A stretch of DNA of 22,435 bases from a virus: the IMG/VR virus record IMGVR_UViG_3300031857_001510, positions 1 to 22,435 of that record. One strand, written 5' to 3'. This document shows positions 430-21,935 of the stretch, piece by piece. The notes beneath the pieces are model-generated. The model was not told the origin of the DNA. It saw only the letters and a list, made by a program, of their open reading frames with translations, and searched no databases. How positions within the stretch are numbered: position 1 is the stretch's first letter; every line of letters starts with the position of its first letter. The position numbers and the translations under genes are program-made.

Positions 430-1101
430 CTAGGTGATGAGGATGTAACGAGGCAAAACAAGTTCCCGAACCGCTAGGTGGACAGCGGCGCGGTCATCAG
501 TAGCGCCCGAAAAACCAACGTTACGGGCACCTTGACCCGCCGTGGTTTCGCGCACCAAGGCAGAGCCATAGTTACCAATGTCAATGCTGTTGAGCAAGGT
601 GCTACCGGTGCCGGCTGTGGGTGGCGCGTTCAAGCCTGAGTAGCACCCGGCATAGCGGAGGCTGTTAGCTCCAGGAGAACCGTCGTTAACACTCTGCACC
701 GTAAGAGTGCCATCCCCTTCCAGCAGCACAATGCCTGTCACTCCGGTGGCTGTGGCTGCCGTGACAGTTGCAGCCGCCGCGTACATCACGGTGGCGTTGT
801 TGGTCCGGTTGACCGTGATCGTCTGGTTGCCAGTAGCAAGACCACTACCGAGGAAGAACGTGTCAAGGCGGCCCAGCTCTCCAGCCCCGTCCTGCGCTAG
901 GCCCCCTGTCACCCGAGTCAGCCCGGTGCCGCCATAGGTGACGCTGGTGACAAGGCTGGTAACGCTGGCGTAGGTGGACACAAACACCACCACACCTTGC
1001 GGTGTGCCTGTCTGGGTGTGCGTCCACGAAAAAGCGGCCTGGTTAGCAGAACCGGTGGTGCCGGTGTGACTCTCAGAAGCAGCGCTGTGTGCGACGGCCA
1101 T
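430..1101 (-). CDS. Putative fibre-associated beta-rich virion protein (223 aa)
   Basis: The product is a Thr/Gly/Ala/Val-rich protein with no signal peptide or membrane segment. It reads like an all-beta sandwich: alternating short strands such as GVVVFVSTYASVTS, VTSVTYGGTGLTRV and NQTITVNRTNNATVMYAA. Its style resembles the C-terminal domain of the large tail-tip protein at 8354-11425, so the two may share a carbohydrate- or structure-binding fold (inference from visual comparison). The ATG at 1101 overlaps the TAA stop of the collagen-like fibre by one base (TAATG), and the stop lies 2 nt before the next fibre gene. This places it firmly in a fibre cassette. A role as a fibre tip, fibre adaptor or surface-binding accessory fits the context. 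I cannot assign a named family. Confidence 0.75.
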   Translation of the reverse strand: MAVAHSAASESHTGTTGSANQAAFSWTHTQTGTPQGVVVFVSTYASVTSLVTSVTYGGTGLTRVTGGLAQDGAGELGRLDTFFLGSGLATGNQTITVNRTNNATVMYAAAATVTAATATGVTGIVLLEGDGTLTVQSVNDGSPGANSLRYAGCYSGLNAPPTAGTGSTLLNSIDIGNYGSALVRETTAGQGARNVGFSGATDDRAAVHLAVRELVLPRYILIT

Positions 1102-4100
1102 TAGAAGATCAGCGTCACGGCCAGTTGAGTCACCGTGCCAGAGATGGCCGAGGTGGTCAGCCAGACATAGTTGTCGGCTGGCACCGTGGCGTTGTTAAAG
1201 CTGGTGGTGCTCAGCCCGGTGGTGGTGTTGGTAACGGTGATGCCGCTCGTGACCACTTCCGTGCCAGCGGCAGAGAGGTCAGTGCCGTAGCGGATGGAGA
1301 AGGTGACCGATGGGCTGGAGCCAAATACCGAGGAGCGGATTTGGGTGATGGTGAGGCCGCCCGTACTGAAGAACAGCACCACGTCCTCGGTAGCGGTGGG
1401 GTTGGTGATGGTGAGCGCTTTGGGTGCGGCCACCCCAGTGACTCCCGTGGCACCAGTCACCCCAACAACGCCCGTGGCGCCGGTTACGCCAATCACGCCC
1501 GTGGCGCCGCTGACACCAATAACACCTGTCGCTCCAGTGGCACCGGAGACACCGATGACGCCAGTCGCACCAGAGACACCGACCACGCCGGTTGCGCCAG
1601 TGGGTCCTTCAACGCCGGTAGCGCCGCTGACGCCAACCACCCCGGTAGCGCCGCTGACACCAACCACGCCGGTGGCACCTGTGGCGCCTTGGGGGCCGTA
1701 GATCTTGGGGCCTAGCTCAACCCACTGGCTGGTGTTGGCATCGGTGACATAGGTGTAGAGGATGCCCGCGTCCTCGTCGAACCACTCGTCACCCTCGATG
1801 GGGCTACCTGGCGGGGTGGTGGTGGAGGTAAAGGCAGCAGCGCCGGTCGCACCAGCCGGGCCCGTGGCGCCTGTGGCACCCGAAACACCGATCACCCCGG
1901 TGGCACCTGAGACACCCAAAACACCGGTAGCGCCCGTGGCACCGCTGACTCCAACCACACCGGTTGCACCTGTGGGGCCGGCCACGCCTGTGGCACCCGT
2001 GGCACCAGAGACACCAACCACACCCGTGGCACCTGTTGCACCGCTGACACCAACAACTCCGGTGGCACCTGTGGCGCCGCTAACGCCGACAACCCCTGTT
2101 GCTCCAGTGGCGCCAGAGACGCCGATGACGCCTGTTGGGCCTTGGATGCCTGTGGCGCCCGTTGCGCCGGAGACGCCAACAACACCGGTGGCACCAGTGG
2201 GGCCTTGGATACCGGTGGCGCCCTGGATGCCGGTCGCACCAGAGACGCCAATGACCCCGGTCGCTCCAGTGGGGCCGGTGACGCCTGCGACTCCGGTGGC
2301 GCCGGTTGGGCCTTGAACGCCCGTGGCGCCGGAGACACCAATTACGCCGGTGGCACCTGTGGCGCCATCAGCACCGGCGACACCTGTTGCACCGGTGGCG
2401 CCATTCGTGCCAGCGACACCTGTTGCGCCGGTGACTCCGGTGGCGCCTGTGGCACCGGCGGGGCCTACGTAGCCCTGGGTGATGGCGGTGCGGACATTGC
2501 TGGGGGTCGCACCAGAGTGGAGGAAGTGGGCGGTGACGTTGCTGGTGTGGGTGGTCTCGGCGTAGACCTTGACGACAATGCGGTCGGTTTCCGCGATGGC
2601 GAGGGGGCTGACGGCGATGCTCAGCGCGGTGTAGTAGTTGCTGCTGGTGGCGTTGATTTCGGGGCTGTCGATCTCGAACAGCAGGGTTTCGGTGCCGCCG
2701 GTGTTGCGCTTGTAGACCTTGAAGACGAGGTTGGTGCTGCCGCTGGCGTCGCTGACGTAGCCCCAGAAGCGGAACTCGTATTCGCCGGCGGGGATTTCGG
2801 TGAGGTTGGGGTCGCCTGCATCGGTGGCGAACTCCTCGATGATGACTTGGCCGGTGGTGTTGTTCACCACGGCGGTCATGTCGTCCTGCGGATCGCTATC
2901 GGGGGTGTCCGGCTGGAGCGACTCGTACCCGCTGATGTCGGAGTCGGTCTGGCGGAAGTACCAGATGCGGCCCGAAGCGCTGACGCCCGCAACACCGGTT
3001 GCACCGGTGGCGCCAGTTGTGCCGACGCCGGTTGCGCCGGTTGTGCCAACGCCGGTGGCGCCGGTTGCGCCGTTAACACCGGCAACCCCTGTGGCGCCTG
3101 TGACACCGGCAACTCCGGTTGCCCCGGTGGCACCATCCGCGCCAGCGACACCTGTTGCACCGGTAGAGCCTGCTCCGGTGGCGCCTTGAACGCCGGTTGC
3201 TCCGGTGGGGCCTTGGATGCCGGTTGCTCCAGCGACACCTGTGGCACCAACCGGGCCGGTGGCTCCGCTGATGCCGATGACACCGGTGGCACCTGTTGCG
3301 CCTGTGATGCCGATAGGCCCGGTGCTCCCCTCGACGCCGGTCGCACCAGTGGCACCGCTAACTCCGGTGGCACCTTGGATGCCAGTTGCGCCAGTGATGC
3401 CGACGCCTGTTGCGCCGGTTGCTCCAGCAACACCGGTCGCTCCAGCGGCGCCGGTGGCGCCTTGGATGCCGGTGGCTCCTGTGACACCCGCACCAGTGGC
3501 ACCTGCAGCGCCTGTGGCACCTGTGGGGCCGGCGATGCCTGTGGCTCCGGTGACGCCTGCACCAGTGGCTCCGGTTGCGCCTGCGCCGCCTGCAACACCG
3601 CTGGCGCCGGTGGCGCCGTCTGCGCCGGCGGTGCCTTGCGCTCCAGTGGGGCCTTCAGGGCCGCTGGGGCCTAGAGGTCCGGTTGCGCCGGTTGGGCCGG
3701 CGACACCTGTGGCGCCTGTCGTACCAGTGCCGGTGGCACCGGTTGCGCCGGTGGAGCCATCAACGCCAATGGTGCCTGCGGCGCCGGTGGCGCCTTGGGG
3801 GCCGGTCGCTCCAGTGCTGCCGTCAACACCGATGGTGCCGGCTACGCCAGTGGCGCCGATGGGGCCTGTTGCACCGGTGGCTCCGGCGGGGCCGGTGTCT
3901 GGGGCTACGGGTTCCCAGCGGGAGGCGGCATCGTTCCAGGCGAGGACGTCACCGTCGTTTGTGGAGCCGTTGGCCTCAACGTCGTGGAGATCTTTGAGCC
4001 GGGAGCCGGTGGTCCAGCGGACGAAGATGGTGCCATTGTTCGTGGCGTGGACAACGGCGGCGACGGGGAGTTTGAGGTAAGGGGCTTGGGGTTCGGTGGT

Positions 4101-4943
4101 GGTGAAGCCGCCGGGGTTGGTGGGGTCGCACCAGAGGATGTCGCCGTCGGCGTAGGCGGAGGTGTTGATGCCGCGGATTTTCCCGAAGACGGTGACGTAG
4201 CCGTCGGCGCCGCCGGCGATGGCTTGGTCGGTGACGCCGAAGAAGACGTAGCCGGGATAGGTGCCGTCGGCCACCATGGGGGCGACCTTGAGGCGGCCGC
4301 TGTTGCCCACCGAACCAGCGAAGCGGACGGCGGTGCCTTTGGGGATGGCGACGGAGTTGCTGTTGTTGCGGCACAGGAGCATGGTCTCCTGGCCGAGGTA
4401 GTTGCTGATGCCGCCGAGCTTGCCAAGTTCGAGGGTTCCCTCGTCGGCGTTCCAGGTGAGTTGGCCGGTGCCGACGCTTAGGCCGGCGTCAAGGGTGAAG
4501 CCGAGGGCGTCAATCGTAGGGAAGCGGACTGGGTCGTAGGCCGGGAAGCCGTTGGGCGGCTCGGCGTTGGACTGGATCGTGATCCGCATTTGGTTCTGCG
4601 GACCAGTGCCCTTGGGGACGGCGACCGTGGAGACGGCGGTGCCGGCGTAGGCCTCAACGATGTAGGCGCCGATGGGTTCAAGGTCTACCGCGTCGCTCCA
4701 GTCCACGAGGTAGACCGTCCATGCGCGGAGCGCACCGGAGTCGGCGTACTGGGGGATGGGGGTGAGGTCTGGGTCGCGGATGATGACGACTTCCAGGCCG
4801 GTGACGGTCGTGCCAGCGGAGAGGGCCTCACCGCTGGAGCGCACGGCGATGGCGGGCGTGGTGGCGCCGTTGGGGAGGGTGTACGTGCCGAGGCTTGCGC
4901 TGAGCAGCGATGCCAGCTCGGTGCGCAGTTCAAGGACGTTCAC
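1101..4943 (-). CDS. Collagen-like tail fibre protein (1280 aa)
   Basis: This is a modular fibre. Residues 1-350 form a non-repetitive N-terminal part that probably attaches to the tail. It contains a KGTAVRF...[12 protein letters not shown]-type beta domain like those found before collagen regions in phage fibres. Three Gly-X-Y tracts follow at about residues 350-653, 827-1034 and 1082-1170, with units such as [13 protein letters not shown] and GPTGATG. A roughly 170-residue globular domain (654-826) and a roughly 47-residue one (1035-1081, with [16 protein letters not shown]) interrupt the tracts. A roughly 110-residue beta-rich C-terminal domain ends the chain and could trimerise it or bind the host. 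Phage collagen tracts form trimeric rods (family knowledge). The start is GTG with no good Shine-Dalgarno, 27 nt after a conserved CTAGG motif. The gene overlaps the next one by one base. Confidence 0.9.
1432..1697 (-). repeat. Collagen-like Gly-X-Y repeat tract 3
   Basis: About 88 residues of Gly-X-Y triplets rich in GATG, GVVGVSG and GVIGVTG units, encoded by near-identical short DNA units. It precedes the C-terminal beta domain of the fibre. Confidence 0.9.
1841..2463 (-). repeat. Collagen-like Gly-X-Y repeat tract 2
   Basis: About 207 residues of Gly-X-Y triplets. The most regular part is a run of [13 protein letters not shown]-type units at about 1900-2170, with successive DNA copies nearly identical. 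That makes it prone to length change by slippage or recombination. Confidence 0.9.
2985..3894 (-). repeat. Collagen-like Gly-X-Y repeat tract 1
   Basis: About 303 residues of Gly-X-Y triplets, more varied than tract 2, with GPTGATG, GATGVAG and GIQGATG units and occasional polar X/Y positions. It begins right after the N-terminal attachment part of the fibre. Confidence 0.9.
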
Positions 4944-4964: not shown

Positions 4965-4976
4965 ACCTAGTTTTCC
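4965..4976 (-). promoter_or_regulatory. Conserved CTAGG motif upstream of the collagen fibre gene
   Basis: The minus strand reads GGAAAACTAGGT, one of three identical 12-base copies in the window. It overlaps the TAG stop of the chaperone T frame, and CTAGG begins 27 nt before the GTG start at 4943. A promoter-like role is inferred from recurrence and position. Confidence 0.55.
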
Positions 4977-7889: not shown

Positions 7890-8321
7890 TCAAGCCACCG
7901 AGAAGGTGAAGATGCCGCTGGCGCTCCAGGTCACGATGAAGTCGGTCCCATCCCCTGCTGTTTCGGTGCCCCCAAAGTCAATCATGGCCAGCGGTGGATC
8001 ATTGGCGTCAGTGTCGTTGTAGAGGATGGCTTTGGCGGCAGAGAGGGCCGCACCAGAGGCGGTCCAGGTCACGTCGTCGGCGTCAAATTTGGCATCGTTG
8101 GTAGTCACCGTAGTCACCGCCACGTTCGTCAAGGCCGCACCACCAGTGGTATAGCCATTGCCGTTGGCCACCTCGGTCTTGGTGATGCCCGCCAAGGTGG
8201 TGTCAGTCGCGGTGAAGGTAGCCGAGGTGCAGAGCATCAGCTTGTAGGTGTCTGCTGGTGCGTTTGAAGCCTCGGCAAAGAGCTTGGTTGTGTGGTTGTA
8301 AACCGAGACGGTGGCTGGCAC
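7890..8321 (-). CDS. Small virion protein (143 aa)
   Basis: GTG start giving MPATVSVYNHTTKLFAEASN, followed by TYKLMLCTSATFTATDTTLA, GNGYTTGGAALTNVAV and VTWTASGAALSAAKAILYND. The protein is all-beta and cysteine-poor. Proteins with this pattern are common just after the tail-tip gene in siphoviruses and prophages, generally of unknown function. Its start lies 25 nt after a conserved CTAGG motif, in the only sizeable gap between the tail-tip gene and the accessory genes, so it may open a new transcription unit. It resembles its 134-aa neighbour. Confidence 0.75.
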   Translation of the reverse strand: MPATVSVYNHTTKLFAEASNAPADTYKLMLCTSATFTATDTTLAGITKTEVANGNGYTTGGAALTNVAVTTVTTNDAKFDADDVTWTASGAALSAAKAILYNDTDANDPPLAMIDFGGTETAGDGTDFIVTWSASGIFTFSVA

Positions 8322-8340: not shown

Positions 8341-8352
8341 ACCTAGATTGCC
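8341..8352 (-). promoter_or_regulatory. Conserved CTAGG motif upstream of the 143-aa virion gene
   Basis: The minus strand reads GGCAATCTAGGT in the 32-nt gap after the tail-tip gene. CTAGG begins 25 nt before the GTG at 8321. It is one of seven related intergenic copies. Confidence 0.5.
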
Positions 8353-11425: not shown

Positions 11426-12222
11426 TACTTCACCAGTGCCAGGTCGAAGGTGACGGTGTAGCGGGTGGACTTGGCGCCGCCCGAGATGATGATTTCACCG
11501 GTGGCGGTGGGGGCAGTGATGGGGAACCAGCTGTTGACGGCGGGGATGGCGGCCACCACTTCTTCGTACCAGGTCTGGATGACGGCCCAGCTGGCGCTGG
11601 AGGTGGTGCCTTCGATGCTGCGGACCTTGGTGGCGGTGAGGGGGCCGGCGAGGACGTGGGCGCCGGTGGCGGCGAGGGTGAGGGTGGGGCCGTCCTGGTA
11701 GGTGACGGGGTCGGCGATCAGCACGATGGTGGCTGTGGCGGTTTCGCCACCGCCGAGGCTTGGGACGATTTTATCGGGGGTGCCGGTGACGATGAACCAG
11801 CTGCCGAAGCTGGGGAGGGTGGACTCGCTGTTTTGGCGGGATTTTTCTTGCTCGCGGAGGAGGACTTGGAGGGCTTGGGCGGCGTCAACGAGGGTGACGC
11901 TGGCGGAGATGTAGGGGCCGGTTTGCTCGCCGGTGGGTGGGTCGGTGAACCAGCAGGCTAGGGAGTTGATGCTGAGGCCGTTGGCGTTGACCGTCAGGGC
12001 GATGGTGGTGCCGACCGTGCCAGTGACGAGGGTGTCTTGGTCGGTGATGCGGGTGTTGCGCCAGGCGTCGTAGGCGGCGACCAACTGCTGCCACTGGTAC
12101 GGGGTAAGCAGGCCGCTGATCTGGAACGAGCGGGAGGTAAGGCCCGTGCGAGCCTCGCCCTCGTAGCCAAATGGCTGCGCGGTCAGTGTGGTCGAAGTGA
12201 AGGCGCCGAGAGTGACAGTCAT
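11425..12222 (-). CDS. Tail protein, distal-tail or tip-associated (265 aa)
   Basis: The product is 265 aa with no signal peptide. It starts MTVTLGAFTSTTLTAQPFGY, then has RSFQISGLLTPYQWQQLVAA near residue 35-50 and a beta-rich remainder (FIVTGTPDKIVPSLGGGETA, TRYTVTFDLALVK). The gene is stop-start coupled at both ends (TAATG overlaps with the tape measure gene and the tip gene). Immediately after the tape measure gene is the usual place of a distal tail protein that joins the tube to the tip (family knowledge). I assign that role from position, not from a recognised motif. Confidence 0.7.
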   Translation of the reverse strand: MTVTLGAFTSTTLTAQPFGYEGEARTGLTSRSFQISGLLTPYQWQQLVAAYDAWRNTRITDQDTLVTGTVGTTIALTVNANGLSINSLACWFTDPPTGEQTGPYISASVTLVDAAQALQVLLREQEKSRQNSESTLPSFGSWFIVTGTPDKIVPSLGGGETATATIVLIADPVTYQDGPTLTLAATGAHVLAGPLTATKVRSIEGTTSSASWAVIQTWYEEVVAAIPAVNSWFPITAPTATGEIIISGGAKSTRYTVTFDLALVK

Positions 12223-15200
12223 TAGAAGGTGGATGCGGCAAGCAACTCTGAGGCTGCGCTGCCGGTGTAATTGTTGTTAATGTAGACGTTCCAGTCCTTT
12301 TGAGTTAGCAGAAACACTTGCTCGCTTAGTGTGTTTGTTGCTTGAGTATTGGCGTTTGTAATTTCAGCTTGTGCGTTAATAACTGTTGCTAGGGCTTGCT
12401 GAGTGCCTATGAGGTCAAGCGTTACTTGGCTCTCACTTTGGACGCTGTTGATGAAGTCGCGGATGGCTGCGTTGACGCCAGCGGTGGATCCGGTGAACTC
12501 GGGGGCGCGGGCGCCGGTGAGTTCGGTGAAGCGGGCTTGGGCTTCGCGGAATTGAGGGAGGAGGACGTCAAAATCAAAGTTGGCGCGTTGCTGGCGCTGT
12601 TGCGAGTTCAGGAAGCGGTTGAGGCCTTGGGGGTCGCTGCGGACGCGAGTAAATTCAACGACCGCACCACGCAGATTGTCGCGGAGCTGCTCTCCGGCTT
12701 CCTTGAGGGCGAGGGCGCCTTTTTCGAGTTCCAGGCGGGTTTGCTTGGCGGCGACCTTCTGTTCTTGGACGAGGCGGAAGGCCTCTTGTTCGCCGGCGTC
12801 GCCGCCGCGTTGCCGAGCAGCGTCAATCTGAGCACCGATCTCACGCTCCCGATCCTTAGCTGCGTCAATGCCCGCTTGAATATTTTGGGTGGTGGCCAAG
12901 GTATCGCGTGCCACGCCCCGCTCAGCCTTACTCAGCGCTTGGGTCGCTGTTACTTGTCTTGCGATGTTTTGCAGCTTGATGTTGTCCTGTGCTGCCTCTA
13001 GGCCCTTCTGAGCAGCGCGATCTTTATCTAATTGGTTAAGTTGTTGGGTAAGGCGGTACAGCTCTAAAGCAGCGTCCTGCTGAATTTTTACAGCTTTTGG
13101 ATTTGCTGGGTCGTTGCGCTCCTTATCTGTAAGTTCTAAAAGTTTGCGGTTCCGTTCGTTGAGTACCTGCTGTTTTTGTAGCTCAAGTGATTGCCGCTCG
13201 TAGCCTTGGGTAGACGCATCTATCAGTTGGTAAGAGGTGGACAGAGATTTTTGATTTTGTACTTGTGCAAAAGCGATGCGAGCTGCGAGTTCTGCTCGCT
13301 GTTTTTCAATACCAAGGAGTTGTTGGGCTAGAGCAATTCCTGCCTGTAATCCTTTGTTTACGTCTTCGTTACTGGGAGGCAGAATGGCGCTTATACCGCC
13401 CCGTGCTTGTCGGGACGCTTCGGTTACCTGCTCTCGCCTAGCTTGAACTTGACGGAATTGATCGGGGCTCAGTTGCCCGACCAGTTGTTCAAAAGATACG
13501 CCTGTGGCTAGTCCACCTGTTGGCTGGGACAGGGTGCGAATTAGAGCAGCAAGAGGTCCCGCAACAAAACTGGCTAAAACTGTGCTGGCTTCGGACCAGG
13601 CTCTACTGATGGTGTCAACAGCATCGTTGTATTCCTTGGCGCCCTGCAGAGAGCCAAATGTACCTATCAAATCTCTTTGAATTACAGCGGCGGCTTCAGC
13701 GCCTCTGCCCGAATCAATCAGAGCTTGTGCGTAGCGTTCCAGCTCTTTTGAAGATAGTGATGCGTTTTGGACAAGGGTCTGGAAATTGGCGATTGGGTCG
13801 TCCAGAGCTTTAGCTAGTGCTCCTAACTTTTGGAGGGCTACGTCAAATTGGGAGCCGAGGGCGGTGCCGACGAGGGAGAGGCCGAAGCCGAATTGGCCGC
13901 CGATGGCGCCACCTGCTGCACCACCCGCTGCACCGCCGATACTGGCGCCGATGCCTTGGCCGAAGAGGAGCGGGAACGCGCCACCGATGATGGCGTTGCT
14001 GATGATGCCTTGCTGCTTCTGGGAGGCGGCTTTGACCTCGCGGGCCTGCTTGGCGAAATACTCCTTGGGGAAGCTGGGGAAGATAGAGTCAAGGAAGGCG
14101 GGCGAGCCAGGGAACGCTTTGCCTCCGCGGACGGGTGCAGCATTCAGAGCGCCGATACGGCGCCCTTCGGCTTGGGTAGATTTTTCAGCAGCGCGAGCGG
14201 AGCGTTCGCGTGCAGCGGTAAGACGTTCTTCTGCGCGGACGGCGGCGGGAGAGCCGGCAATATTGGCTGCACCGCCAATCGGAGATCGAGCGCCACCCTG
14301 GCGGGCAAGGAAAGCAAGGTCAGCTGGGGAGCCTGTAAGACCTACCCGACCACGAAGAGGTTCCGAAGGACCACCCCGACGTGCCTGACGATCCAGTTCG
14401 CGGTTCTGGTCGCGGATGACGCGCAGTTTGTCGCGTTCTTTGCGGAGAGTGAAATCAAGTGAATCGGCGATTCTGTTGAAGCTGCCGAACTGGCGATTGG
14501 CTTGGGCAGTGGTGGCTTCGCCAAGCTGGGTGCGCAGTTTTGCAGTGTTGATTCCTGCGGCTTCTAGGCTGCGGATCTGCTGGTCTAGGCCGTAGCGGCG
14601 CTTTTGTGCATTGGTTAAAGCGTCAATGGATTCCCTAGCGCCTCCTTGCCTAGCGCCTATACGAGCGGCTTGGCTTTCGGCACGCTGAGTCTGCTCAGTT
14701 AGGCGCAGCTTTCGCTCAGCCAAGGTGATTTCCCTAGCAAGCACTCGTCCGGTCTGCCTAAAAGTGCCAAACTGGCGGCTGCTTTGTGCTTCGGTTAGTT
14801 GGCCAAGTCGATACCTGAGCCGGCTTACATCAACGCCTCTTTCTTCTAGAGTTTCTATGCGTTGACTGAGTCTGAAGCGACGTTCCTGTGCCTTCTCTAA
14901 AGCACGCACATCCTCACGCGCTCCACCGAACCTAGCTCCCCTGCCTGTCACTAAACTCTGCTTGCTTTCTGCTGCCGCAGCCGCAGATGCTTGCTGTTTG
15001 AGTTGAGCTGTCAGCAGCGTAGCAACACGTAACCTTCCTTCTTCAAGCCTTACTGTGTTGGAAAGTTGAGCTGTTATTTGACGTACAGTTCCAAAACTAC
15101 GCTGCTCGTTAGCGGATATAGCACTGGTTAGCCGAGCCCTTAACTGGGTAACGTCTACTCCTTTTGCTTGGAGTATATTTATTCTGTTCTGTAAACCAAC

Positions 15201-15386
15201 AATGCGACTGTTGGCTTTTTCTACTGCATCAGTAGATTCGCGTGCTCCGCCTTTTGCCGAAGTTCTGGTTGATGCTAGTTTTGCTGTTCTTTGTACGTCC
15301 TGCTTTAGAAGATTTAACGCATCTCTAGCGGGTTTGTCATCTACGGTAATTCTTAGGACGGCTGTGCCGAGATTTTCCTCTGCCAC
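12222..15386 (-). CDS. Tail tape measure protein (1054 aa)
   Basis: Longest helical protein of the cluster, in the standard position between the major tail protein and tip genes. It sets tail length and is ejected with the DNA (family knowledge). Residues 1-40 look like a small N-terminal domain (TAVLRITVDDKPARDALNLL). Residues 46-340 contain three tandem helical repeats, each starting GGARE. Residues about 462-515 are a Gly/Ala-rich hydrophobic stretch (FPLLFGQGIGASIGGAAGGA onward), typical of the membrane-active part of tape measures. The rest is Gln/Arg/Leu-rich coiled coil. Start is GTG, without a clear Shine-Dalgarno, 29 nt after a minus-strand CTAGG motif in the gap shared with the divergent plus-strand genes. 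No peptidase motif is evident. Confidence 0.9.
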   Translation of the reverse strand: MAEENLGTAVLRITVDDKPARDALNLLKQDVQRTAKLASTRTSAKGGARESTDAVEKANSRIVGLQNRINILQAKGVDVTQLRARLTSAISANEQRSFGTVRQITAQLSNTVRLEEGRLRVATLLTAQLKQQASAAAAAESKQSLVTGRGARFGGAREDVRALEKAQERRFRLSQRIETLEERGVDVSRLRYRLGQLTEAQSSRQFGTFRQTGRVLAREITLAERKLRLTEQTQRAESQAARIGARQGGARESIDALTNAQKRRYGLDQQIRSLEAAGINTAKLRTQLGEATTAQANRQFGSFNRIADSLDFTLRKERDKLRVIRDQNRELDRQARRGGPSEPLRGRVGLTGSPADLAFLARQGGARSPIGGAANIAGSPAAVRAEERLTAARERSARAAEKSTQAEGRRIGALNAAPVRGGKAFPGSPAFLDSIFPSFPKEYFAKQAREVKAASQKQQGIISNAIIGGAFPLLFGQGIGASIGGAAGGAAGGAIGGQFGFGLSLVGTALGSQFDVALQKLGALAKALDDPIANFQTLVQNASLSSKELERYAQALIDSGRGAEAAAVIQRDLIGTFGSLQGAKEYNDAVDTISRAWSEASTVLASFVAGPLAALIRTLSQPTGGLATGVSFEQLVGQLSPDQFRQVQARREQVTEASRQARGGISAILPPSNEDVNKGLQAGIALAQQLLGIEKQRAELAARIAFAQVQNQKSLSTSYQLIDASTQGYERQSLELQKQQVLNERNRKLLELTDKERNDPANPKAVKIQQDAALELYRLTQQLNQLDKDRAAQKGLEAAQDNIKLQNIARQVTATQALSKAERGVARDTLATTQNIQAGIDAAKDREREIGAQIDAARQRGGDAGEQEAFRLVQEQKVAAKQTRLELEKGALALKEAGEQLRDNLRGAVVEFTRVRSDPQGLNRFLNSQQRQQRANFDFDVLLPQFREAQARFTELTGARAPEFTGSTAGVNAAIRDFINSVQSESQVTLDLIGTQQALATVINAQAEITNANTQATNTLSEQVFLLTQKDWNVYINNNYTGSAASELLAASTF
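14367..15251 (-). repeat. Three-fold internal repeat in the tape measure protein
   Basis: Units begin at residues 46, 154 and 248. Each runs GGARE(S/D)..A(L/V)..A..R...L...I..L...G(V/I)(D/N)...LR..L, then a RQFG/RSFG turn and a basic helix ending in KLR or RLR. Units are roughly 92 residues, spaced 108 and 94 residues apart. Confidence 0.8.
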
Positions 15387-15409: not shown

Positions 15410-15421
15410 CCCTAGGTTGCC
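15410..15421 (-). promoter_or_regulatory. Conserved CTAGG motif upstream of the tape measure gene
   Basis: The minus strand reads GGCAACCTAGGG. CTAGG begins 29 nt before the GTG start at 15386 and is followed by TATAGGCGG. It is the most divergent of the seven copies and lies 3 nt from the plus-strand copy. Confidence 0.4.
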
Positions 15422-15424
15422 TGA

Positions 15425-15436
15425 GGAAAACTAGGT
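15425..15436 (+). promoter_or_regulatory. Conserved CTAGG motif upstream of the plus-strand neck genes
   Basis: The plus strand reads GGAAAACTAGGT, identical to the copies at 4965-4976 and 19079-19090 but in the opposite orientation. CTAGG begins 27 nt before the GTG at 15458. The motif has turned with the genes it precedes. Confidence 0.55.
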
Positions 15437-15457: not shown

Positions 15458-15853
15458 GTGGCAACTGCGCTGGCTGCACTGGATAATGCGACGGTCACGT
15501 TCACGGTGACGGCGTCTGGGACGACCGTGGATGCGGACACCGGGAACGTGGTGCCGAACACGACGACGGTCCAGGTGAGTGCCTACCTCAAGGGCGAGAG
15601 CGTCAACGAGGTGGTGTATCCCGGCGTGAATCAGGTGACGACGCTGTTTGAGGGGTATGTGACGAGCACCAGCGGGTTGGATGCGCGGGTGGTGGCTGGG
15701 ACGACCGGTCAACTGACGTTTGCAGGGCAAACGTCTGTTGACTGCGAGGTGTTGGAAGCGCGGCTGCCGTATGGGACCAGTGGGTTGCTGGGGGGTACGC
15801 TGGCCTCGGCGCTGGGGCCCAAGATTCGGCTGGTGTCGCGGAAGCAGACCTGA
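15458..15853 (+). CDS. Putative head-closure / neck protein (131 aa)
   Basis: One of only two plus-strand genes. GTG start gives MATALAALDNATVTFTVTAS, then DTGNVVPNTTTVQVSAYLKG, a beta barrel-like middle, and TGLLxxTL-like C-terminal segments (GTSGLLGGTLASALGPKIRL). Size, beta content and pairing with a gp10-like gene match siphovirus head-closure or stopper proteins, which sit below the adaptor ring and receive the tail (family knowledge). Its stop overlaps the next ATG by one base (TGATG). A conserved motif lies 27 nt before the start. The inferred role depends mainly on context, and a tail-completion protein is an alternative. Confidence 0.7.
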   Translation: MATALAALDNATVTFTVTASGTTVDADTGNVVPNTTTVQVSAYLKGESVNEVVYPGVNQVTTLFEGYVTSTSGLDARVVAGTTGQLTFAGQTSVDCEVLEARLPYGTSGLLGGTLASALGPKIRLVSRKQT

Positions 15854-16320
15854 TGGCGCGGGTATCGTTCCAGCTGAAAGAGTGGAACGCCGACAAGCTG
15901 CTGGCGAAGAGTGAACGGGTGCTGGAGCAGCTGGGGCCGATTTACGAGGCTGAGGCAGACAGGCAGATAGCTTCTGTGAAGTGGGCCTGGCCCGTGCCAG
16001 TGCTTAGATTTCAGAGCTTGTTGATGGGTGGTACGCCGGGGCCTAGAGGAGGTGTGGTTGTGAACGCCGGCCGTAGGGACATTGTGGATACGGGACAACT
16101 TATGGATTCAAGGAAGACGCAGTTACAGGGGAAATCGTTGTCGATTACGTGGCAGGCGCCGTATGCGATGAACGTCATCAAGGGATCGTATGGGCCGTAT
16201 GTGAACCCGGCAGGCGACAGGGTTTTGCCGCAGCAGATTGCGCGGAACTGGATTGATGCGACGTACCAGGCGTTGCCGGCGATGAAGACGTTTGCGGAGA
16301 AGTGGCGGGTTACGAAGTGA
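15853..16320 (+). CDS. HK97 gp10-like neck / tail-completion protein (155 aa)
   Basis: Product begins MARVSFQLKEWNADKLLAKS and contains a helical segment (RVLEQLGPIYEAEADRQIAS), RRDIVDTGQLMDSRKTQ, WQAPYAMNVIKGSYGP and a final helix (IARNWIDATYQALPAMKTFA). The 'D(T/S)G.L..S' plus 'APYA..V..G' pair is characteristic of HK97 gp10-type proteins that join head and tail (family knowledge). It is translationally coupled to the upstream 131-aa gene and ends 60 nt before the convergent major tail protein gene, with a terminator between them. Orientation is opposite to all other structural genes. Confidence 0.8.
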   Translation: MARVSFQLKEWNADKLLAKSERVLEQLGPIYEAEADRQIASVKWAWPVPVLRFQSLLMGGTPGPRGGVVVNAGRRDIVDTGQLMDSRKTQLQGKSLSITWQAPYAMNVIKGSYGPYVNPAGDRVLPQQIARNWIDATYQALPAMKTFAEKWRVTK

Positions 16321-16380: not shown

Positions 16381-17142
16381 TCAGGAGACGGTGGCAACGG
16401 TGAAGGTGGGGGCCACATCTGGGGAGGCGCCGCCGACGGAGGCGAGGGCGACGGTGAGGATGTCGCCGACCTTGTAGTTGGTGCCGCCGGCCACGATGGT
16501 GGGGGCTGCGCTGACGGTGCCGCCGCCGGCGACGATGATGTCAGCGGTGGCACCCTTGCCGGAGCCGATGCCGGCTGCGGGGTTGCTGGAGAGCAGGGTC
16601 ACGCCGCTGTAGGTGGCGGGGGTGAGGCCCGAACCAGCGGTGGTGACCGTCAGGGTGGCGATGGGGTTGCCTTGGGGGTAGAAGTAGTAGACGCCGTAGC
16701 CGGTGAGGGTGAAGGAGACCTTGGCGATGTTGCCGGCGGTGATGTCCTCGGAGAAGTCGCCGATTTGGGCGAGGCCGGAGTGGACTTCGGGGTTGTCGCC
16801 GGAGGCGTCGGTCACCGGGGTTTCCCGATACCACTCAAGGATCGTGCCATCGGCGGCTTTGAGGGCGGCCTTCTTGAGGATCTCGTAGCCACCGTCGGTG
16901 ACGTCGAGGTTCATCGAGCAGGGGATGCTGTAGCTCTGGCTCGTGATGAGGTTGGCCTGGAAGCCTTGCTCGGAGTCGTAGTCGATGACCGAGGTGGACT
17001 CGGAGGTGCCCTGGATGCCGGTGTTGTCCAGCGACAGGATGCGGGTCATTCCAGCCGACGAGGTCGGGATGGAGCTGGCGCTGCTACCGAGCTTGACGTA
17101 GAGCTTGTAGCCGAGGCTAGCGAAAAAACTTCCCGTCGCCAT
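16381..17142 (-). CDS. Major tail (tube) protein with C-terminal beta domain (253 aa)
   Basis: Residues 1-160 look like a siphovirus tail tube protein: GYKLYVKLGSS, FQANLITSQSYSIPCSMNLD, and IAKVSFTLTGYGVYYFYPQG near the end of the domain. Residues about 165-253 are an added Gly/Thr/Val-rich domain (TTAGSGLTPATYSGVTLLSS, GGTNYKVGDILTVALAS) of the 'GSGxxPGTYxxVxL' kind that decorates structural proteins of cyanophages, probably exposed on the tube surface. ATG at 17142, 40 nt after a conserved CTAGG motif and 15 nt after a second CCTAGG. A strong terminator follows, making this a single-gene unit, consistent with a protein needed in many copies. Confidence 0.85.
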   Translation of the reverse strand: MATGSFFASLGYKLYVKLGSSASSIPTSSAGMTRILSLDNTGIQGTSESTSVIDYDSEQGFQANLITSQSYSIPCSMNLDVTDGGYEILKKAALKAADGTILEWYRETPVTDASGDNPEVHSGLAQIGDFSEDITAGNIAKVSFTLTGYGVYYFYPQGNPIATLTVTTAGSGLTPATYSGVTLLSSNPAAGIGSGKGATADIIVAGGGTVSAAPTIVAGGTNYKVGDILTVALASVGGASPDVAPTFTVATVS

Positions 17143-17176: not shown

Positions 17177-17188
17177 ACCTAGATTACC
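17177..17188 (-). promoter_or_regulatory. Conserved CTAGG motif upstream of the major tail protein gene
   Basis: The minus strand reads GGTAATCTAGGT and overlaps the TAA stop of the HNH gene. CTAGG begins 40 nt before the ATG at 17142. A second CCTAGG (17153-17158) lies closer to the start. It could drive the tail-tube gene independently of the upstream genes. Confidence 0.55.
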
Positions 17189-17873
17189 GGGGCTTGACCT
17201 GCCAGCGTCGTGGTCTGCGGTTGTTCGCTTGTGTTGTGTAGTCGGCCCACCGACAGTTTCCGGGCTCGTAGTTCCCGTCGTTGTCAATACGATCAAGAGT
17301 CAACCCCTCAGGACACTCTCCCATGTCATCTAAAAATGCCTCAAAACTTTCAAGCCATTCAGAGCAGCAACTGATACCACGTCCTAGGTAATATTCGGTG
17401 TAAGGATTATTCGGGTTACTTACTCTCTGTTTCATGTTTGTCCATATCTGGTATGTACGACTCACACCTGTAGACGAGCGGGCGTGGCCATGACTTAAGT
17501 TCAGAGCACCGGCAACTTCCTGTTTAATACAGCCACAGCTGTGGACACTCCAGCCAAGATTGGAGCTTTTTAGCTCAACACGGTTTCCGCAGGCACACTG
17601 ACAAAGCCAAATAGCTTGCTTACCTACGTTACCTGTCTGCTCTAATAAGGTAAGCCGTCCGATAACGTCCCCCGGCTTTTTCTTGTAAGAACACCCGCAA
17701 CTGGTACTCTTTCCGTTTTTAAGGTTTCGTGAAGCCACCTCGCGTTCAATGCCGCAGTCGCATCGACAGAGCCATCGGTAACCGGGCCGTGGTTCTAGGG
17801 CGATCCAACTCCCGAAGCACTGGCCTGTGAGGTCTATAGTCTTTGGCATCACCTGGCGGTTGCGGGTGGTCAC
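17184..17873 (-). CDS. HNH-type endonuclease with two zinc ribbons (free-standing homing type, 229 aa)
   Basis: Two Cys-rich ribbons occur at residues 36-61 (CRCDC...SCGC) and 91-115 (CQCAC...SCGC). They are followed by YQIWTNMKQRVSNPNN and, at 193-210, LDRIDNDGNYEPGNCRWA, the block typical of phage-borne HNH endonucleases of this class. Such proteins cut DNA and spread into related genomes lacking the gene (family knowledge). The gene sits between the sigma-like gene and the major tail protein gene, is visibly more AT-rich than its neighbours, and its stop overlaps the next conserved motif. The longest frame starts GTG at 17873; ATG at 17849 (MPKTIDLTGQ) is an equally good start. The HNH histidine is not obvious, so activity is uncertain. 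Confidence 0.8.
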   Translation of the reverse strand: MTTRNRQVMPKTIDLTGQCFGSWIALEPRPGYRWLCRCDCGIEREVASRNLKNGKSTSCGCSYKKKPGDVIGRLTLLEQTGNVGKQAIWLCQCACGNRVELKSSNLGWSVHSCGCIKQEVAGALNLSHGHARSSTGVSRTYQIWTNMKQRVSNPNNPYTEYYLGRGISCCSEWLESFEAFLDDMGECPEGLTLDRIDNDGNYEPGNCRWADYTTQANNRRPRRWQVKPR

Positions 17874-17909: not shown

Positions 17910-18449
17910 CTACAGGTCCGATTCCTCTAGCAGTTCCATCGGGGTGGGGCGGGGGCAGAGGTGGAGGTTGAAGTCTTTGGTTTCGTGGTCGATGGATTCG
18001 GTGGCGGTGAGGGCGAGCTTGAGTTTTTCCTCGGTGGTGTTGAGGGCGGCGATGACTTCGGCGCGGGTTTTGCCGTCGCGGAGCATGTAGCGGGCTTGCT
18101 GACCGAGGGTTCTGACTGCCGCTGGTGCTTTGATCTCCCAGTTGTGGTCGCGGATGAAGTGGCGGATTTCGCCTTCGGAGAAGACGGTTAGGAGGGTGGA
18201 GAAGGTGCCCTTGGCGGGGTTCCAGGCGCGGCAGGTTTTGATGAAGGCGATGTCGATGCTGCTGTAAATGTCCTCCTTGCGGAGGAAGCGATATTTGCGG
18301 CACATCTTGCGGCCCATCAGTGCGATCAGGCCGCCGTGTTGGCGGTAGAGCGCTCCAACGCTGCGCTGCTCCTCGCGGGTGAGCGGGGTGGCGAGGTAGC
18401 CCGTGCGGGCCCGCTTGGGTTTTGGTGGACTTGCTGTGGCCATAGTCAC
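17910..18449 (-). CDS. Sigma-70-family-like RNA polymerase sigma factor, short (179 aa)
   Basis: After a basic N-terminus (PPKPKRARTGYL), residues about 35-105 resemble sigma region 2: a helix ending in RKMCRKYRFLRKED, then IYSSIDIAFIKTCRAWNPAK (2.1-2.2 like the 'D..QEG..GL..A...FDP..G' pattern), and GTFSTLLTVFSEGEIRHFIR (2.3-2.4 like 'FSTYA...I...I...IR'). Residues 105-150 could be a region-3-like helical domain. There is no visible region 4 helix-turn-helix, and the C-terminus is acidic. It probably redirects host RNA polymerase to phage promoters (inference). Position is odd: between head-tail adaptor and tail genes. A hairpin overlaps its ribosome-binding region. Start is GTG 18449 or ATG 18443. 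Confidence 0.65.
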   Translation of the reverse strand: MTMATASPPKPKRARTGYLATPLTREEQRSVGALYRQHGGLIALMGRKMCRKYRFLRKEDIYSSIDIAFIKTCRAWNPAKGTFSTLLTVFSEGEIRHFIRDHNWEIKAPAAVRTLGQQARYMLRDGKTRAEVIAALNTTEEKLKLALTATESIDHETKDFNLHLCPRPTPMELLEESDL

Positions 18450-18452
18450 AGC

Positions 18453-18478
18453 CTACAGGCTGTACTTAGGGCCTGTAG
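18453..18478 (-). promoter_or_regulatory. Inverted repeat at the sigma-like gene start
   Basis: An 8-bp dyad CTACAGGC/GCCTGTAG with a 10-nt loop ends 3 nt before GTG 18449. The AGG that could serve as ribosome-binding site for ATG 18443 is at the foot of the stem. It could be an operator, or an RNA hairpin limiting translation. Confidence 0.45.
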
Positions 18479-18494
18479 TTTGCCACTGCTGGTA

Positions 18495-19064
18495 CTAGCT
18501 GCGGACGCGGGCCATGATTTTGCCCGTGCCACCGGGGATGGTGCTGGTGGTGAGGCAGCCGAGGATGGTGGCGAGGTGGGGGAGGGCGGAGAGGGGGCTC
18601 ACCACGGCCTGGGAGGCGGAGGAGACGTCGGTGCGCCACTCCAGCTCCATGACGTCGAGCTTGAGGCGTGCCAGGTCGCGGTTGGGGACGCCTGGGACGA
18701 TCTCGGCGGCGCTGCCGGTGCTGCTTTGGAGGAGGGTGGGGGTGGTGAGGAGGGCGTTGGCGAGGTCGAAGGTGCTGTACTGGACTTGCTCGGGGATGAT
18801 GTTGTCGGCGTATTCGACGCCGTCGCATTCCACGTCGGAGCGGGGCCAGTCCAGCGCCTGGGTCGTGCTGGCGCGACTGCCGATCCAGACGAGGGTGTCG
18901 AGGCCGCGGGTGGAGGTGATGAGGGCCCGTGTTTTTTGGTCGGTGGTGGCGGTGGTCCAGGCCAGCGTGCCAAGCATCGTCTCGGCGATGGTGTCGGCCG
19001 CGGCGATGGTGAGGTAGCTGTTTGCCGTGGCCGATCCAACGGTTGCGGTGATGGATGCCGGCAT
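18495..19064 (-). CDS. Head-tail adaptor, DnaT-like family (189 aa)
   Basis: The protein begins MPASITATVGSATANSYLTI with AAADTIAETMLGTLAW, matching the 'TV..GT.LANSY.S...AD.Y...' start of phage DnaT-like/adaptor proteins that follow capsid genes. Further features are ALITSTRGLDTLVWIGSRAS, LDWPRSDVECDGVEYADNII and a helix DLANALLTTPTLL, the usual order in this family. It should form the ring under the portal connecting head and neck (family knowledge). ATG at 19064 has AGAGGT 8 nt upstream as a fair ribosome-binding site, and a conserved CTAGG motif begins 20 nt upstream. It is followed by the sigma-like gene after 45 nt, rather than by neck genes. Confidence 0.75.
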   Translation of the reverse strand: MPASITATVGSATANSYLTIAAADTIAETMLGTLAWTTATTDQKTRALITSTRGLDTLVWIGSRASTTQALDWPRSDVECDGVEYADNIIPEQVQYSTFDLANALLTTPTLLQSSTGSAAEIVPGVPNRDLARLKLDVMELEWRTDVSSASQAVVSPLSALPHLATILGCLTTSTIPGGTGKIMARVRS

Positions 19065-19078
19065 GTTGCTGTACCTCT

Positions 19079-19090
19079 ACCTAGTTTTCC
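19079..19090 (-). promoter_or_regulatory. Conserved CTAGG motif upstream of the adaptor gene
   Basis: The minus strand reads GGAAAACTAGGT, identical to two other copies, in the 47-nt gap after the 44-aa gene. CTAGG begins 20 nt before ATG 19064, so it precedes the unit containing the adaptor and probably the sigma-like gene. Confidence 0.55.
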
Positions 19091-21165: not shown

Positions 21166-21903
21166 TCAGCCTCGGGAGGCCTCGGCTTTGTAGCGGTCGT
21201 GGGTGGCGCGGTCCTCGCGGTAGAGGCGGCCGATCTCGGTCAGGTTGATGGGGCTGCTCAGGAACGGGTTGTTGCCTGAGGCGGCGGATACGGGGGCGGC
21301 GGGGGAGGATCCCATGCCCTTCGCTCCAGTGGGGGCGAAGTGGTGGTCCCAGCCGGACTCTGGGGCGCGGAGGCGTGCCAGGTGGTCGGAGAGGGGGATC
21401 TCGATGCCGCCGGAGATGACTGCGGGTTTTCCGTCGACCTCGCGGAGGTCGGAGGAGATGAGGGCTAGGAGTTGGTCCGGCCTGAGGGCCTTGGAGGCGG
21501 TGATCTCTTGGATTGCGCGGGACCGGAGGGTCTCGCTGGCTCGGGCTTGGCGCTCGGCGTCAAGTTGAGCGTGCAGGTCAGAGATTTGGCGTTCCAGGGT
21601 CAGGTTGGTTTCCTTGGCGTCCTCCCACAGTTTTTTGTATTCGCCGGATTGCTCCAGTTGGGTGGTCTGACCGGATTTGAGCTGGGCCTGCGTCGCTCGG
21701 AGGTTCTCTTCTAGGTCCTGGAGTTTGCGGTTGAGTTCGGCGTTTTTCTCGCCGGCTCGGCGCTTGTCTTCGGAGACGAGGTCTAGCTTTGCTTTGAGGC
21801 GTGCCAGGTCCTCGGAGGAGGGGGTGCTCTGAGCGTCGGGTGAGGGCGTCGCGGACGCACTCTGCTCCTCCACGGGAGGAGCCCCGTTGACTGATTCAGT
21901 CAC
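21166..21903 (-). CDS. Capsid scaffolding protein (245 aa)
   Basis: Residues 1-30 are a Pro/Ser/Glu disordered lead. About 30-125 are a continuous coiled coil with heptad Leu and Lys/Glu pairs (LARLKAKLDLVSEDKRRAGE onward). About 130-180 is a small domain with LRPDQLLALISSDLREVDGK. The C-terminal tail NPFLSSPINLTEIGRLYRED, ending in KAEASRG, is the basic helix by which scaffolds dock to capsid protein (family knowledge). Start is GTG with no Shine-Dalgarno nearby, 26 nt after a conserved CTAGG motif. The gene directly precedes the capsid gene, as expected. No protease motif is visible. Confidence 0.85.
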   Translation of the reverse strand: MTESVNGAPPVEEQSASATPSPDAQSTPSSEDLARLKAKLDLVSEDKRRAGEKNAELNRKLQDLEENLRATQAQLKSGQTTQLEQSGEYKKLWEDAKETNLTLERQISDLHAQLDAERQARASETLRSRAIQEITASKALRPDQLLALISSDLREVDGKPAVISGGIEIPLSDHLARLRAPESGWDHHFAPTGAKGMGSSPAAPVSAASGNNPFLSSPINLTEIGRLYREDRATHDRYKAEASRG

Positions 21904-21923: not shown

Positions 21924-21935
21924 TCCTAGATTACC
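21924..21935 (-). promoter_or_regulatory. Conserved CTAGG motif upstream of scaffold and capsid genes
   Basis: The minus strand reads GGTAATCTAGGA, then GTGTACC, in the 47-nt gap after the minor head gene. CTAGG begins 26 nt before GTG 21903. It could drive the scaffold-capsid unit. Confidence 0.55.

Follow-up and report, generated by a model that had tools for sequence, protein, structure and literature searches.

What is a sigma-like protein doing among the structural genes of a viral contig, and which promoters might it serve? We interrogated this locus in an IMG/VR virus contig, analyzed as one stretch of 22,435 nucleotides (hereafter the window). Comparison with 50,697 phage records gave no close isolate. 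The capsid protein of the window is nearest to those of the Synechococcus siphoviruses S-H1 and KBS-S-2A (58-59% identity), with Prochlorococcus phages next, and the host is therefore likely, judging from sequence, to be a picocyanobacterium. The 179-aa ORF is present where an earlier note, made from the sequence alone, had placed it (Table 1). The head-tail adaptor gene lies directly upstream, and an HNH endonuclease gene followed by a tail gene lies downstream. The HNH gene (17184-17873, minus strand; PHROG 374, 2.4e-71) comes directly after the small sigma gene in the window; an HNH-like protein is encoded at the same place in a relative, G023 (45152-45826; L141), and is absent there in most relatives. 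It is probably a mobile (homing) gene.

The protein is a member of the sigma-70 family that contains regions 2 and 3 and lacks region 4. In profile searches, residues 34-104 match Pfam Sigma70_r2 (E 2.7e-4, with a score just short of the gathering threshold), and region 4 has no match, either in the protein or anywhere in the window. NCBIfam SigBFG (7e-7) and PHROG 351 'RNA polymerase sigma factor' (1.3e-13) agree with the region 2 match, in keeping with the region-2-like block that the earlier note had put at residues ~35-105. Against the PDB, the family profile hits S. aureus SigB (2.5e-6, profile positions 28-148), and in a profile-profile comparison with the full-length sigma factor of the same phages, regions 2 and 3 align (E 9e-7). 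When a global alignment is forced, the C-terminus of the small sigma meets residue 225 of the 293-residue full-length protein, in the linker before region 4. An AlphaFold model of moderate confidence (mean pLDDT 72) contains a region-2 bundle (residues 25-102) and a region-3-like helix set (110-149), followed by a low-confidence stretch (154-174) and a short last helix (170-176), with no fourth domain. The possible region-3-like block and the missing region 4 proposed earlier are thus both borne out, the former by the alignment and the model helices, the latter by profiles, model and the point at which the protein ends. Structural matches of the model are sigma factors, the best being sigma-28 (Z 8.8), and the isolated SigE region-2 domain is matched as well (Z 8.7, rmsd 2.5 over 77 residues); T4 gp55 is not among the matches listed, which is neutral either way. 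By eye, the key beta'-contact residues of region 2.2 are non-standard (SSID vs QEGN in sigma-70); this and the moderate confidence of the model count against the sigma role proposed below.

The earlier note had also pointed to a single-block CTAGG motif around the gene. That motif is real and consists of a single block, but the bare pentamer is no commoner across the window than chance would have it (38 copies vs 31.7 +/- 6.1 expected, with 38 reached in 21 of 100 shuffles) and was rejected in favor of an 11-nt element, GGNAAHCTAGG, which has seven exact sites in the window against 0.07 expected (0 of 100 shuffles). A slightly wider form, GGNAANCTAGG, occurs 66 times, and its reversed pattern once, in 19 sigma-bearing records, some of them near-duplicates. 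The length of the element, like the second, full-length sigma and the lysis unit described below, had been missing from that note.

We then considered the surroundings of 100 non-redundant sites, which were selected by the core GGNAAHCT, so that conservation of the core is not independent evidence and that of the flanks is. Ahead of the motif, information stays at or below 0.13 bits at every position between -59 and -4, with a lone preference for C at -3 (0.27 bits) and no conserved upstream block. After the motif comes an A+T-rich stretch at positions 13-17 (A in 55% at position 15, purine in 80% at position 17), and the start codon is mostly found 21-32 nt from motif position 7. If transcription were to start at position 15, A4 would be placed at -11 and T8 at -7, where ordinary -10 elements have their two key bases. 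Back-to-back motif pairs are present in 18 distinct sequences, with 5' ends 0-10 bp apart and a varying gap; the members of the window's pair are 3 bp apart. At such distances no -35 element is therefore possible without overlapping the opposite promoter. Together with the lack of an upstream partner, these pairs uphold the single-block layout.

Table 1. The small sigma gene, its upstream neighbor and motif sites in the window
Feature	Position	Strand	Basis
Small sigma factor (179 aa) with regions 2 and 3, lacking region 4	17910..18449	-	Homology, family alignment, predicted model
Head-tail adaptor gene, upstream gene of presumed adaptor-sigma transcription unit	18495..19064	-	PHROG 477 / Pfam DnaT_2
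Putative promoter motif GGAAAACTAGG, before adaptor-sigma unit; proposed feedback promoter	19080..19090	-	Motif search
Degenerate motif copy GGCAAACTACA, directly upstream of sigma gene; function uncertain	18474..18484	-	Upstream-window motif scan (L026)
Putative promoter motif GGTAATCTAGG, before tail gene 16381-17142	17178..17188	-	Motif search
Putative promoter motif GGCAACCTAGG, before large, probable tape-measure gene 12222-15386; one member of divergent pair	15411..15421	-	
Putative promoter motif GGAAAACTAGG, before inverted gene pair 15458-16320; other half of divergent pair	15425..15435	+	
Putative promoter motif GGTAATCTAGG, before probable scaffold gene 21166-21903, which closely precedes capsid gene	21925..21935	-	
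Putative promoter motif GGCAATCTAGG, before gene 7890-8321	8342..8352	-	
Putative promoter motif GGAAAACTAGG, before collagen-like fibre gene 1101-4943	4966..4976	-	

Two of the neighborhoods listed in Table 1 have features of their own. The inverted gene pair, on the plus strand, opposes the direction of the structural cluster, has its own motif in the divergent pair, and is conserved in all relatives checked. The collagen-like protein (1280 aa, minus strand) carries a G-A-T-G repeat and is a probable tail fibre, and its length varies from 646 to 1436 aa across relatives.

In the relatives, whose genes were called by simple ORF tiling so that individual starts may be off, the motif is found at units for portal, scaffold, adaptor, tail, tape measure, fibre and lysis; the replication half is without it. 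The near-complete contig G023 (47.6 kb), which has the same motif pair at both ends, carries all of its sites in the part encoding terminase, portal, scaffold, tail, fibre and lysis functions; no motif site is found at ~17-35 kb, where DNA polymerase, primase and exonuclease are encoded. This split between structural and lysis genes on one side and replication genes on the other is repeated in G003, G019 and G025. One G023 site, at 16888, precedes a unit ending in endolysin. A conserved ~80-aa protein (PHROG 26178; G023:C1:16921-17163 and homologues) is encoded just after a motif and upstream of the endolysin gene. In divergent clades with the small sigma, the motif is altered at one or two positions, chiefly among its final four, and is again found at the genes for portal, scaffold, adaptor, tail, inverted pair and tape measure.

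The association between motif and small sigma that the earlier note had drawn is seen across loci. A relaxed motif is present in 105 of 527 upstream windows in loci with the small sigma vs 0 of 918 in capsid relatives without it, a count that leaves out three explained loci (L061, L062 and L066), which hold the motif although the small sigma was not seen at them, and the upstream 8-mers most enriched in the former over the latter are pieces of the motif. As for the three, the record of L066 carries the small sigma elsewhere, the 4.7-kb contig of L061 ends about where the sigma gene would begin, and the record of L062 is without the whole adaptor-to-tail block around sigma, consistent with a contig gap. 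No exact motif copy is found in S-H1, KBS-S-2A or MED4-184, which lack the small sigma. The sigma-bearing loci form one related group, and shared descent therefore weakens the co-occurrence as evidence of cause; sigma and motif could both be lineage markers rather than cause and effect.

We propose that the protein is a late sigma factor resembling T4 gp55, that it serves a single-block promoter of its own and that, via the adaptor promoter, it also drives transcription of the sigma gene, and we put the probability of this reading at about 0.76. It rests directly on the homology and domain content of the protein, on the motif and its position, and on the co-occurrence of motif and sigma, from which we infer core binding, promoter recognition, start site, feedback and late timing.

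A second sigma factor has to be weighed against this proposal. In the replication part, the near-complete contigs with the small sigma carry a further sigma gene, whose product is of ordinary build (~290-350 aa, regions 2 and 4). This RpoD-like, full-length protein is carried by G003, G019, G023, G025, G037 and G021 (L139-L154). Its presence, and the restriction of the motif-sigma association to one lineage, would suit a reading in which another lineage-specific factor, be it the full-length phage sigma or an activator, uses the motif as its promoter or activator site, and the small sigma only assists or is an anti-sigma. We regard this as improbable. KBS-S-2A, G030 and G031 have the full-length sigma and neither the small sigma nor the motif, and because of these phages the motif is seen to follow the small sigma; it is unlikely that the full-length phage sigma reads it, and we disfavored that candidate. 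The single-block layout and the back-to-back pairs are also better suited to a sigma without region 4. To our knowledge, the transcription programs of cyanosiphoviruses have hardly been described; two sigmas of different build in one lineage suggest an early-to-late sigma cascade in these phages.

The position of the element, 21-32 nt before start codons and so within ribosome reach, raises the question of whether it acts in RNA, as a translational operator or enhancer, and is no promoter. We give this little credence, since in divergent pairs one copy would fall outside the leader belonging to the other, a promoter accounts better both for a start-codon distance that varies and for the A+T-rich sequence that follows the block, and the element co-occurs with a sigma factor.

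The small sigma has relatives at 43 IMG/VR loci, 54-93% identical. All 20 aligned members end at about the same point with nearly the same length and share an invariant C-terminal pattern, C-P-R-x-T-P...L-E, in a segment that reads CPRPTPW[DE]xLE. Although region 4 is missing, a truncated, decaying sigma without function can practically be dismissed, given the 43 loci at this level of identity, the conservation of length and C-terminus in the aligned members and the HNH endonuclease gene, rather than a region-4 remnant, that follows the stop codon in the window. A scan with the family profile of one genome per GTDB species found no cellular relatives, and we therefore drew no link to a host gene or prophage. 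Neither the motif nor the small sigma has a prior description in the literature searched, which covered papers outside subscription.

For the late-sigma reading, the following course can be envisaged. The small sigma would replace the host sigma, or compete with it, on the RNA polymerase core of a host that is probably a cyanobacterium, with region 2 binding the core. Region 2, perhaps with region 3, would read GGNAAHCTAGG, whose core is GGNAANCT and whose placement resembles that of a -10 element, and transcription of the virion and lysis operons would start 3-8 nt past the block, giving short leaders. The promoter before the adaptor gene would read into the sigma gene, and the regulator would amplify itself. 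First synthesis of the small sigma would have to come from another promoter, perhaps via the phage's full-length sigma or the host sigma.

Positive feedback, as suggested earlier, is plausible, because the motif stands before the adaptor gene (19080-19090), no terminator-like site is found on the minus strand between it and the sigma gene, and the adaptor-motif-sigma arrangement is repeated in relatives. Canonical sigma-70 promoters near the cluster number 3 vs 0.8 expected, and none lies before the adaptor or sigma gene. As a dedicated promoter of the sigma gene, only degenerate motif copies are seen, in part of the family; the copy in the window (Table 1) might add a weak promoter. Whether the protein is also a stand-alone minimal sigma is a further and more doubtful matter: it is possible that, with no region 4, -35 element, phage clamp or gp33-type coactivator, an 11-bp element of unusually high information, read by region 2 together with region 3, would suffice for cyanobacterial RNA polymerase to transcribe late genes specifically, and would do so even where two divergent promoters stand back to back at 0-10 bp. 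The small protein and short promoters make the requirements of a region-4-less sigma for initiation directly testable, and the motif would mark late operons in many uncultured viral contigs from sequence alone.

Several phage sigmas invite comparison. The sigma of phages phiEco32 and 7-11 has a short phage-specific motif of the TAATGTATA type (PMC4331800). As in those phages, the present motif is short and phage-specific, stands before structural genes and is placed to transcribe its own sigma gene; the motif and the phage group differ, and the phiEco32 / 7-11 sigma gene, unlike ours, sits in a functional (replication) cluster with an anti-sigma gene. Cyanosiphovirus P-SS2 encodes a group 3 sigma of ~214 aa, ORF003 (PMC2784084). 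This protein (L030, 2091-2732) is a distant relative of the small sigma, with homology across regions 2-3. The P-SS2 record contains no PF04545 region-4 match, and in this sigma, too, region 4 may have been lost or have decayed. ORF003 differs in its C-terminal part and in having its gene next to terminase, and GGNAANCTAGG is not enriched in P-SS2. The RpoD-like sigma of the cyanosiphovirus KBS-S-2A (PMC3751600), whose capsid protein shares 58% identity with that of the window, and of its relatives is full-length with region 4; its counterpart in the phages studied here is the second sigma rather than the small one.

The closest functional parallel would be T4 gp55, a late sigma with domain 2 and without domain 4, which acts at the late promoter with gp33 and gp45 (PMC2988020). 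The small sigma shares this domain content, and because gp55 works without region 4, that region is not obligatory for sigma function. Both systems would have late promoters without an upstream or -35 element and late structural genes as targets, and in both proteins a less ordered stretch leads into a short conserved segment at the C-terminus. The T4 late promoter is an AT-rich block, whereas that of the small sigma would be GGNAAHCTAGG. Unlike gp55, the small sigma keeps a recognizable region-3-like part, has a different C-terminal segment, and is encoded inside the structural cluster. No gene for a bacterial-type clamp C-terminal domain was found in the sigma-bearing phages with the bacterial-type families searched, and a bacterial-type clamp was rejected as a T4-like activator. 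Profile searches with the small sigma gave PHROG 351 and SigB/SigF-type sigmas, and these hits would put it closer to SigB/SigF than to gp55. We would file it as a sigma-70-family protein that by analogy works like gp55, without placing it in the gp55 family. If true, the T4 late strategy, in which a sigma without the -35 domain is paired with a one-block promoter, would have a second example in these ~47-kb relatives of picocyanobacterial siphoviruses.
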